The notes under the pieces were generated by a model. That model was not told where the DNA came from. It saw only the letters and a program-made list of their open reading frames with translations, and made no database searches. A program made the translations under genes and the position numbers. A stretch of DNA of 64,000 nucleotides, taken from contig NZ_QEXV01000001.1 in NCBI RefSeq assembly GCF_003122085.1, positions 868,001 to 932,000 on the forward strand. Reading direction: 5' to 3'. Positions 4,936 to 46,029 of this stretch are shown here, one piece after another (the stretch's first letter is position 1; each line of letters begins with the position of its first letter). The DNA is from Marinicauda salina (GTDB taxonomy: Bacteria; Pseudomonadota; Alphaproteobacteria; Caulobacterales; Maricaulaceae).

Positions 4936-4948
4936 GTGGTTCTCTGAT

Positions 4949-5041
4949 GAAACCGTGGCCGAGCGAAGCGAGAGCCGGGGCCTCGCGGTGCTTGATCGCC
5001 GCGAGGTCCCGGATCGCGCCTGCGGCGCGTCCGGGAATTCA
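4949..5041 (+). repeat. Dispersed intergenic palindromic repeat, family C copy 1
   Basis: One of four ~90-bp copies seen here (also 40656-40748 in the same orientation, and 30166-30258 and 45795-45884 inverted). Shared parts: a GAAACC opening, a CCGGGGCCT arm, and a strongly conserved end with CGCGCC-TGC-GGCGCG followed by CCGGGAATTC. In this copy CCGGGGCCTCGCGG (4976-4989) pairs with CCGCGAGGTCCCGG further on to form a long hairpin. It lies between ruvA and ruvB, where it could act as an attenuator or RNA-stability element (inference). Confidence 0.8.
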
Positions 5042-7297: not shown

Positions 7298-7376
7298 TGT
7301 CATGGCCGGACTGGTTCCGGCCATCCAGAATCTCACCAGGTGCGGCTGGATCACCGGGACGAGCCCGGTGATGACA
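7298..7376 (+). repeat. REPIN-like inverted palindrome pair, family A copy 1 (short form)
   Basis: 79 bp. The left end (7298-7327, starting TGTCATGGCC) and right end (7347-7376, ending GTGATGACA) are inverted copies of one another, separated by 19 bases. Each end is itself a hairpin: ATGGCCGGA and TCCGGCCAT around a 5-base loop on the left, ATCACCGGG and CCCGGTGAT on the right. It has the same ends as the larger element A2, which starts 27 bases further on, and as A3 at 45662-45748. Confidence 0.85.
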
Positions 7377-7402: not shown

Positions 7403-7779
7403 TGTCACCGCCGGACTTGTTCCGGCGGTCCAGGCGTCACGAGACGATGTCCTCCCAGAGATCGCGCCAATCGGGGTTCATTGCCTCGATAAGATTGAGC
7501 TTCCAGCGACGCGGATACTTCTTGATGGTCTTCTCGCGCTGAATGGCGAGCCGGACGTCGCCGAAAGTTTCGTACCAGACCAGCATCTTGACGCCGTAAC
7601 GCCGAGTGAAGCCGTCGCCCAGGCCCTCGCGATGCTCGTAGACGCGGCGGATCAGGTCGTTCGTGACGCCGCAATAGAGCGTGCCGTTGCGCCGGCTCGC
7701 CATGATGTACACGAAGTATATGCACTCCATGGTTGTATGGTGCGCCGACTGGATCGCCGGGACAAGCCCGGCGATGACA
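7403..7779. mobile_element. Family A element carrying a GIY-YIG gene inside inverted palindromic ends
   Basis: 377 bp. Left end 7403-7432 (TGTCACCGCC, loop CTTGT) and right end 7750-7779 (ATCGCCGGG, loop ACAAG, ending GATGACA) are inverted relatives of each other and match the ends of the short copies A1 and A3. The 317 bases between them are almost exactly the GIY-YIG gene: its stop lies 4 bases from the left end and its start 19 bases from the right end. This looks like a full-length element whose short copies have lost the gene. A degenerate left-end remnant follows near 7808-7836. Structure is seen directly; mobility is inferred. Confidence 0.7.
7437..7730 (-). CDS. Single-domain GIY-YIG endonuclease-like protein
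   Basis: 97 residues, the UvrC/YhbQ-type minimal GIY-YIG fold (COG2827-like). The two core strands are VYIMAS and TLYCG, followed by the Arg-bearing helix (LIRRVYEHREG) and the conserved Glu in REKTIKKYPRRWK; the ending NPDWRDLW is typical. ATG start at 7730. A homologue (41892-42191) shares the ASRRNGTLYCG stretch and the same overall layout. Small GIY-YIG proteins of this type have no settled function; nicking or repair of branched DNA has been suggested. The gene fills the interior of repeat element A2, so a role in spreading the repeat is possible. Confidence 0.9.
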   Translation of the reverse strand: MECIYFVYIMASRRNGTLYCGVTNDLIRRVYEHREGLGDGFTRRYGVKMLVWYETFGDVRLAIQREKTIKKYPRRWKLNLIEAMNPDWRDLWEDIVS

Positions 7780-30126: not shown

Positions 30127-30438
30127 CCCTCCCCCGCTTGCGGGGGAGGGTCGGGGTGGGGGCGGTGAAATTCCGGACGCGCCGCAGGCGCGCTCCGGGA
30201 TCTCCCGGCGATCGATCTCGAACAGGCCCCGGCTCTCCCTCCGGTCGGCCGGGGTTTCAGGCGCCACTTCACCCCACCCCGGCCCTCCCCTCAAGGGGAG
30301 GGGGCGGCGCCCTCCCATCCCCCGGATCAAGTCCGGGGCAGGCTTTCGAGGCCCGATCCCCTCACCCTGAGGTGCGACCCCGGACTTGATCCGGGGGAGC
30401 CTCGAAGGGGCAGGGGATCGGGCGCCTCAGGATGAGGG
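30127..30438. repeat. Cluster of four stacked intergenic repeats (families E, C, E, F)
   Basis: The 374-base gap between the esterase start and recR holds only repeats. E1, 30127-30162: CCCTCCCCCGC hairpin followed by a GGGGTGGGGG tract. C4, 30166-30258: inverted copy of family C. E2, 30271-30303: inverted relative of E1. F, about 30317-30438: hairpin CCCCGGA-TCAAG-TCCGGGG (30320-30338) paired with an inverted one (CCCCGGA-CTTGA-TCCGGGG, near 30378-30396). Element F thus has the same two-hairpin build as families A and B, and its hairpin sequence recurs in repeat B2. Confidence 0.8.
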
Positions 30439-40631: not shown

Positions 40632-40655
40632 GGGCGGGCGCCGTTCAAAGAGTTT

Positions 40656-40748
40656 GAAACCCCGGCCGACCGCAGGGAGAGCCGGGGCCTCGTCGAGATC
40701 GGTGGCCTCAAGGTCCCTGATCGCGCCTGCGGCGCGTCCGGGAATTCA
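40656..40748 (+). repeat. Family C palindromic repeat, copy 2
   Basis: Same orientation as C1 (4949-5041). CCCCGGC and GCCGGGG form a first hairpin, and CGCGCC-TGC-GGCGCG a second, ending in CCGGGAATTC. It starts 25 bases past the def stop. With E3 it fills most of the 371-base gap between def and the next gene; nothing else is visible there. Confidence 0.85.
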
Positions 40749-40836: not shown

Positions 40837-40928
40837 CCCTCCCCTTGAGGGGAGGGTGAGGGTGGGGGTGAGGCCGCGGCGCGCGAGGCCCCCACCCCGG
40901 CCCTCCCCCGCATGCGGGGAAGGGAGAG
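40837..40928. repeat. Family E GC-rich repeat pair, copy 3
   Basis: CCCTCCCC-TTGA-GGGGAGGG (40837-40856), a GGGTGAGGGTGGGGGTGAGG tract, then an inverted counterpart with CCCCCACCCCGG and CCCTCCCCCGCATGCGGGGA. Copies also occur at 30127-30162, 30271-30303 and 45896-45990. The G-tracts could form G-quadruplexes. Confidence 0.75.
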
Positions 40929-41002
40929 CGCCCGGCGCCGCGAAGCCTTCCCCTCGCCCCCCGACCGCGCCTAGCATCCGTCCGGGGAAGAGGGAGAGCA
41001 TC

Positions 41003-41654: not shown

Positions 41655-41734
41655 CTCTTCCCCGACGCAAGTCGGGGCCCAGAGAGGCCGCGCGGCCGCT
41701 TGGCCGCTGGGTCCCGGCTTTCGCCGGGAAAGAG
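41655..41734 (+). repeat. REPIN-like pair, family B copy 1
   Basis: 80 bp. Left end 41655-41682 (CTCTTCCCCGACG, hairpin CCCCGAC-GCAA-GTCGGGG) and right end 41707-41734 (CCCGGC-TTTC-GCCGGG, ending AAAGAG) are inverted relatives of each other. Copies B2 and B3 follow in the same orientation on either side of a GIY-YIG gene. Confidence 0.85.
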
Positions 41735-41764
41735 AATGTATATGCAGCGGTGATGTCCAAACGC

Positions 41765-41847
41765 CTCTTCCCCGGACTTGATCCGGGGCCCAGAGAGGGC
41801 GCGCCGCGTCCCGTGGCCGCTGGATCCCGGCTTTCGCCGGGAAAGAG
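41765..41847 (+). repeat. REPIN-like pair, family B copy 2
   Basis: 83 bp, same orientation as B1, 30 bases after it. Its left hairpin is CCCCGGA-CTTGA-TCCGGGG, the sequence also found in element F near 30378, which links families B and F. The right end is nearly identical to that of B1. The GIY-YIG gene starts 44 bases downstream. Confidence 0.85.
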
Positions 41848-41891
41848 ATGCGTGTATATTAATCGCGTCAAAGTTGTGTGCGGGTTCACCG

Positions 41892-42191
41892 ATGCTCGAT
41901 CGGCCCATACAGCCGTGCGTCTATCTCCTCGCGTCGCGACGCAACGGGACGCTCTATTGCGGCTCGACGGGTTATCTCATTCGGCGGATCTGGGAGCACC
42001 GCGAGGGCGTCGGTTCGCCGTTCACGGCGAAGTACGGCGTCACCTTGCTGGTCTGGTACGAGCTTCATGAGGAGATGGCGTCGGCCGTCCGGCGCGAACA
42101 TCGCATCAAGCAGTGGAAGCGCGCCTGGAAGCTGGCGCTGATCGAGCGCGACAACCCGACCTGGCGCGACCTCTACGAGGAGCTGCTCTGA
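41892..42191 (+). CDS. Single-domain GIY-YIG endonuclease-like protein, second copy
   Basis: 99 residues. Core strands CVYLLAS and TLYCGST, Arg helix LIRRIWEHREGVG, Glu-bearing helix AVRREHRIKQWKRAWK, and the end NPTWRDLYEE, all parallel to the protein at 7437-7730. ATG at 41892. It lies between repeat copies B2 (ends 41847) and B3 (starts 42209). The stop codon is the start of a truncated duplicate of the B left border (TGACGCCTCT, repeated 14 bases later). Function as for the first copy: uncertain, nuclease fold clear. Confidence 0.9.
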   Translation: MLDRPIQPCVYLLASRRNGTLYCGSTGYLIRRIWEHREGVGSPFTAKYGVTLLVWYELHEEMASAVRREHRIKQWKRAWKLALIERDNPTWRDLYEELL

Positions 42192-42208
42192 CGCCTCTCA
42201 TGTGACGC

Positions 42209-42289
42209 CTCTTCCCCGACGCAAGTCGGGGCCCAGAGAGGCCGCGCCGCGCGGTTCGCTGCTGGGTCCCGGCTTTCGCCGGGAAAGAG
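42209..42289 (+). repeat. REPIN-like pair, family B copy 3
   Basis: 81 bp, same orientation as B1 and B2; left end identical in form to B1 (GACGCAAGTC hairpin), right end CTGGGTCCCGGC onward. It lies 17 bases past the GIY-YIG stop and 25 bases before the stop of the convergent SDR gene. Confidence 0.85.
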
Positions 42290-45895: not shown

Positions 45896-45990
45896 CCCCC
45901 ACCCGGCCCTCCCCCTGAGGGGGAGGGAGAGCTGACGGGGCGCGCCAGCGCCATTCCCTCCCCTTGAGGGGAGGGTCAGGGTGGGGTGAG
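45896..45990. repeat. Family E GC-rich repeat pair, copy 4
   Basis: CCCCCACCCGGCCCTCCCCC with GAGGGGGAGGGAGAG on the left, then CCCTCCCC-TTGA-GGGGAGGG and a GTCAGGGTGGGGTGAG tract on the right. Ends 40 bases before the truA start; the rest of the gap shows nothing recognisable. Confidence 0.75.
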
Positions 45991-46029
45991 GCGCGTGACC
46001 CTGGAACCAGAGCGGACCAGCAAGAGCCC

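Follow-up and report, generated by a model that had tools for sequence, protein, structure and literature searches.

A probable REP-nuclease pair in Marinicauda salina: a minimal GIY-YIG nuclease gene surrounded by REPINs of its own type

The RAYT transposases are thought to spread the GTAG REPs of bacteria. In these REP/RAYT systems, or REPtrons, short palindromes are arranged as inverted pairs and dispersed in copies, the cognate gene is flanked by repeats of its own type, and gene and repeat are sorted together. The enzyme is the Y1 HUH transposase TnpA-REP. The CGTC REPs, which include dRS3 of Neisseria and RPE-6 of Rickettsia, are characterized by a loop of four to five bases, a CCA tail and inverted dimers, and were reported in 2013 without a dedicated transposase (Di Nocera 2013, PMC3733652). 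GIY-YIG nucleases that serve selfish elements are known from the free-standing homing endonucleases and the Penelope-type elements. The GIY-YIG domains of the latter systems, which often come with additional domains, have been assigned to the UvrC lineage or its vicinity, and the small bacterial GIY-YIG proteins have been grouped with the repair nuclease Slx1, a structure-specific enzyme (PMC1564403). No report linking GIY-YIG, COG2827 or DUF559 proteins to REPs was found in the open-access PMC literature searched. Described here is a locus at which a small GIY-YIG gene and three surrounding REPINs probably constitute such a partnership.

The window, namely the whole 64,000-nucleotide stretch of DNA that was analysed (G000:C1:868001-932000), belongs to a genome of 2.89 Mb in 7 contigs. 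The gene lies on the forward strand at positions 41892-42191, with the ATG start codon at 41892 and the TGA stop codon at 42189-42191. Its 99-residue product matches Pfam PF01541 above the cut-off (E = 4e-13) and retains the invariant columns. The catalytic residues Tyr 11, Tyr 22, Arg 32 and Glu 69 are intact and are kept in 64-65 of 66 repeat-flanked homologues; by its Pfam match and its catalytic tyrosine, arginine and glutamate the protein belongs to the GIY-YIG nuclease superfamily. It stands alone, with no further domain detected by Pfam or NCBIfam, and no NCBIfam family was matched. The only relatives in the PDB are 1zg2 and 1ywl, both bacterial members of the Slx1 family (PMC1564403). 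The stand-alone domain, these nearest solved structures and the published grouping assign it to the minimal bacterial Slx1-type branch. It differs in this respect from the homing and Penelope-type enzymes, and in being sited among REPs. It also differs from the RAYTs, since it matches GIY-YIG alone and carries no Y1/HUH domain (PF01797).

Three direct copies of an element referred to as family B surround the gene, all on the forward strand. The first occupies 41655-41734 (80 bp), the second 41765-41847 (83 bp), ending 44 bases before the start codon, and the third 42209-42289 (81 bp), starting 17 bases past the stop codon. The copies, their coordinates and both spacings are thus as an earlier note on this DNA had given them. 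That note had also described a truncated left border at the stop codon. The bases TGACGCCTCT are indeed present at 42189-42198, overlapping the stop codon, and the same ten bases recur at 42203-42212 in the left border of copy 3; as read from the sequence, a 10-bp match is weak evidence for a truncated element and marks at most a possible remnant.

Each family B element consists of two inverted REPs separated by a short spacer, with the tags outside and the tails inside (CTCTT-hairpin-CCCAG, spacer, CTGGG-hairpin-AAGAG in copy 1). The individual REP is built from a CTCTT tag, a 7-bp stem, a loop of four or five bases (GCAA, GAAA or CTTGA), the returning stem strand and a (C/T)CCAG tail, read as CCCAG or TCCAG; the stems begin CCCCG or TCCCG. 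Folded as single-stranded DNA, the three copies outscore all 200 of their shuffled versions (z = -4.1, -3.6 and -4.3 for copies 1, 2 and 3, respectively). In the lowest-energy folds the tags pair as an outer stem, with at least partial pairing of the CCAG tails, which yields a four-way junction with two hairpins, a shape owed partly to the inverted layout itself. The 96-bp element of another family in this genome, family E, prefers one long stem when folded.

The family B REP half occurs in 11 copies in the 2.89 Mb genome when up to three mismatches are allowed, and three of these are at the window gene; a control pattern of the same composition gave no copies. The probability that two or more of the remaining ten copies would by chance lie inside a stretch of about 900 bp is about 5e-6. 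Among 13 family B and sister elements, a search for perfect 7-bp stems found the hairpins retained in all 13, with no element failing, and the two REPs of an element agree at 134 of 182 stem positions. Complementarity is thus preserved in the hairpins despite differences between the REPs of one element, which makes the changes in the stems compensatory. In each of the 13 REPINs one REP stem starts with a T-A pair and the other with C-G (13 and 13), so that the two halves always differ from each other, as left and right ends would.

Family B is classed as a REPIN, since it consists of inverted REP pairs that enclose a short spacer and are scattered over the genome. It is not a GTAG REP, the tag being CTCTT. 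With the CGTC REPs it shares the loop of 4-5 bases and the CCA tail, but it has neither a CGTC (or TGTC or CCTC) tag nor the complementary AT at the first two stem positions, and its stem is 7 bp long. Rfam returned no match above the gathering score.

The association extends well beyond this gene. Another 40 genomes from the family and the order supplied 100 single-domain GIY-YIG loci and 20 UvrC loci. The 300 bp to the left and to the right of a gene were compared by their best local alignment, and a repeat was called at a score of 20 or more. By this measure matching repeats flank 66% of the 100 single-domain genes and are missing from roughly one in three; the figures for 696 other open reading frames in these loci and for 426 random anchors are 0.3% and 0.9%, respectively. 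A further 80 named loci were found by protein pattern, of which 76 were usable, and matching flanks occur in 66% of them versus 2.8% in the control. Their labels include Elusimicrobia, Thermaceae, Nitrospirales, Ignavibacteria, Planctomycetota and a Neisseria record, several of them outside the Proteobacteria, and since several are MAG contigs, single taxonomic labels are to be taken with care. Of 127 tailed hairpins around named GIY-YIG genes, 79 carry a CGTC tag and 15 a TGTC tag. Outside the order of the window organism the flanking repeats are mostly CGTC-tagged REPs. In the record titled Neisseria gonorrhoeae DSM 9188 (L221:5741-6542), a GIY-YIG gene is situated amid dRS3-type GTCATTCCCGC..GCGGGAATC repeats.

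The type of repeat follows the type of nuclease. Among 4779 non-syntenic gene pairs, repeat sharing climbs stepwise from 0% at protein identities below 25% to 100% above 80%, and in control flanks 600-900 bp away it is near 0 at all identities. The Mantel rho is 0.336, compared with 0 ± 0.028 when genes are permuted and 0.08 for the largest of 500 permutations. When the genome pair is held fixed (766 comparisons), a gene has its repeat in common with the closest protein partner in 21% of cases and with any other GIY-YIG gene of that genome in 1.6% (p = 8e-76). On a tree of 99 proteins, which was built from a short alignment and has many unresolved forks, the tag classes require 18 changes as opposed to 31.8 after shuffling, and none of 200 label shuffles was as ordered. 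The agreement between tree and repeat type is the one the earlier note had predicted, and the two findings that would have spoken against it, random assortment of repeats and the same enrichment at unrelated genes, were absent from these comparisons and from the neighbouring reading frames and ParE toxin genes, respectively.

The CTCTT-tagged REPINs around the window gene also surround its nearest two relatives, L114 and L167 (identity 73% and 77%, respectively), the loci with this tag being L004, L114 and L167. The next relatives, L068 and L168, have an identical stem-loop-tail design with the tag GCGTTT. Beyond the repeats the flanks of these loci showed no homology other than one weak match of L114 to L167 by tblastx. 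Judged from these sequence comparisons, nuclease and repeat type descend together, even where the loci are unlinked. Such concordance may reflect co-inheritance without recognition, and co-inheritance does not prove recognition.

Two further groups of nuclease genes show a similar arrangement. A second GIY-YIG clade, of the Y-V/T-G-S-H-R-G type, pairs with TTCGA..CTCAGGATGAG repeats, the density of which is 0.62 per kb beside the pooled genes of the order set versus 0.034 per kb far away, and which require 4 changes on the tree as opposed to 15.8 after shuffling. Genes for DUF559 nucleases carry CTCCC..GGGAG..TGAGG palindromes on both sides at 14 of 30 loci (L303-L332), as exemplified by L310:1399-1741, which corresponds to C4:160187-160495 of the Marinicauda genome. 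DUF559 is thus a second, unrelated nuclease fold paired with a repeat superfamily of its own; these genes are the one departure from the expectation that unrelated genes would lack flanking repeats, and because the palindrome is a different one, they enlarge the idea of matched nucleases and palindromes. When the sets are tabulated against each other, CCAG hairpins are found at 23% of GIY-I and 0% of GIY-II genes, TTCGA repeats at 88% of GIY-II and 4% of GIY-I genes, and CTCCC repeats at 30% of DUF559 genes and 0-1% of the GIY sets, with a background of 1%; the table is near diagonal, and is a description and not an independent test, the GIY-I/GIY-II split and the motifs having been defined after inspection of the data. 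Genes for ParE toxins, which are similar in size and likewise accessory, have none of these repeats and showed matching flanks in 0 of 30 cases. It is conceivable that REPs and small accessory genes simply pile up in the same tolerant intergenic places, given that both the REPs and the nuclease genes are accessory and intergenic, but the ParE result, the match of repeat type to enzyme type and the table just described contradict this, and it is considered highly improbable.

The genome of Marinicauda salina yields six GIY-YIG matches, namely five single-domain genes and UvrC. The window gene, called the second GIY-YIG gene in the earlier note, is therefore the second of the window and one of five single-domain genes in the genome. 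Repeats flank all five on either side, and UvrC is without them. Families A, B and E visibly differ, and each is found at one of these genes, whereas the remaining two genes (C4 and C1:495k) encode proteins that are 69% identical and have one repeat type in common. The other GIY-YIG gene of the window, at 7437-7730 on the reverse strand, is accompanied by family A REPs on the same strand, GTCATCGCCGGGCTTGTCCCGGCGATCCAG at 7749-7778 and, on the opposite side of the gene, a second at 7346-7375. The family A REP, present in 17 copies in the genome, has a TGTC tag and AT at the stem start. Family E numbers 43 whole elements, four of them at the family E nuclease gene, which is located outside the window at C1:628029. 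Three of the 43 are inside the window (4948-5041, 30166-30261 and 40655-40748), and the distance from one of these to the family B elements downstream of it is about 900 bp. Copies of all three families are also present away from any nuclease gene. The Y1 transposase domain of the RAYTs (PF01797) is absent from this genome and from 36 of the 41 genomes; a RAYT was accordingly rejected as the mobilizer.

The nuclease gene is not a constant resident of its site. In G013 the order def, small lipoprotein gene, SDR gene is kept without the nuclease gene or REPs, and in G021 and G004, where the nuclease gene is likewise missing, def and the lipoprotein gene are in place and an SDR gene follows. At the L072 site, G029 displays REPs, nuclease gene and REPs, and G025, of the same genus at 90-94% identity, displays REP remnants and a methyltransferase-like gene; G025 has one GIY-YIG match (UvrC only) and G029 four. 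Of 28 genes with long flank-to-flank matches (score of 40 or more), 26 have them in direct orientation, so a deletion between the flanks could remove the gene. These observations, and the resemblance of the direct flanks to what would be left by a gene inserted between copies of one element, could be accounted for by a homing-type selfish gene, in which the nuclease gene is the mobile unit, moves by cutting and repair, and uses as landing sites REPINs that spread by other means. But many REPINs are far from any nuclease gene, repeat type tracks enzyme type more closely than a generic landing site requires, and absence at orthologous sites is explicable by loss, so this is regarded as unlikely. 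A comparison of G025 with G029 for precise REPIN insertions gave two REPIN-length differences, both imprecise and without a clean target-site signature. A single fixed transposon was rejected, given that gene and repeats of close paralogues match as separate blocks with differing offsets.

The variable presence bears on one more explanation, by which the nuclease and its REPs are a domesticated pair for chromosome maintenance or gene control, kept by selection, with any mobility being ancient. Conserved catalytic residues and the grouping with the repair nuclease Slx1 (PMC1564403) would suit such a role, but patchy presence, a copy number that varies within a genus (G025 versus G029) and several parallel families in one genome do not, and it is thought improbable, more so than homing.

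The association and co-inheritance of nuclease and repeats are observed, and it is probable that the GIY-YIG gene and its three REPINs are a REP-nuclease pair, in which the nuclease recognizes and spreads its cognate REPINs. That the enzyme cuts and spreads its own REPs is suggested by its Slx1-type character, the four-way fold and a tag that changes with the enzyme. The minimal endonuclease would recognize its REP by the tag and the folded shape: a single-stranded REPIN is predicted to fold into a four-way junction of tag stem, hairpin, tail stem and hairpin, which is the sort of branched DNA cut by Slx1-type enzymes. A cut or nick at the folded REPIN, followed by host repair or copying, could then spread the REPIN and now and then take the gene with it. 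Because GIY-YIG enzymes act by hydrolysis and do not re-join DNA ends on their own, the joining step of such spread would have to come from host repair or replication. The nuclease may thereby play for CGTC-like REPs the part that is ascribed to RAYTs for GTAG REPs, a hydrolytic nuclease taking the place of the tyrosine transposase. The comparison of the earlier note with RAYTs and their REPs holds as an analogy and not as membership: RAYTs are not related to this enzyme, and its cleavage and mobilization of REPs are inferred.

The results suggest nucleases of this kind as the hitherto missing partners of bacterial repeats that are very common and of unexplained origin. It is an evenly balanced question whether they represent a general class of REP-nuclease partnerships outside the transposases, drawing on at least two unrelated folds (GIY-YIG and DUF559), each lineage with its own palindrome superfamily, and acting as the engines of the CGTC REPs, the TTCGA..CTCAGGATGAG repeats and the CTCCC..GGGAG..TGAGG repeats by cutting folded repeats and not by transposition chemistry; the DUF559 pattern suggests a wider principle. 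The CGTC REPs, including Neisseria dRS3, are now tied by position and shared inheritance to a small, testable enzyme family, and their spread is thereby open to direct study. The CTCTT and GCGTTT tags on one stem-loop amount to a natural specificity swap, from which it may be learned how a 99-residue nuclease could read DNA.

DUF559 and GIY-YIG genes are about 1-4 kb apart in G017, G009, G026 and G033 (neighbouring loci L099 with L313, L106 with L304, L127 and L093). Within the window, the DUF559-type palindrome CTCCCCTTGAGGGGAGGGTGAGG is present as gene-free copies at 40839-40930 and 45909-45991.
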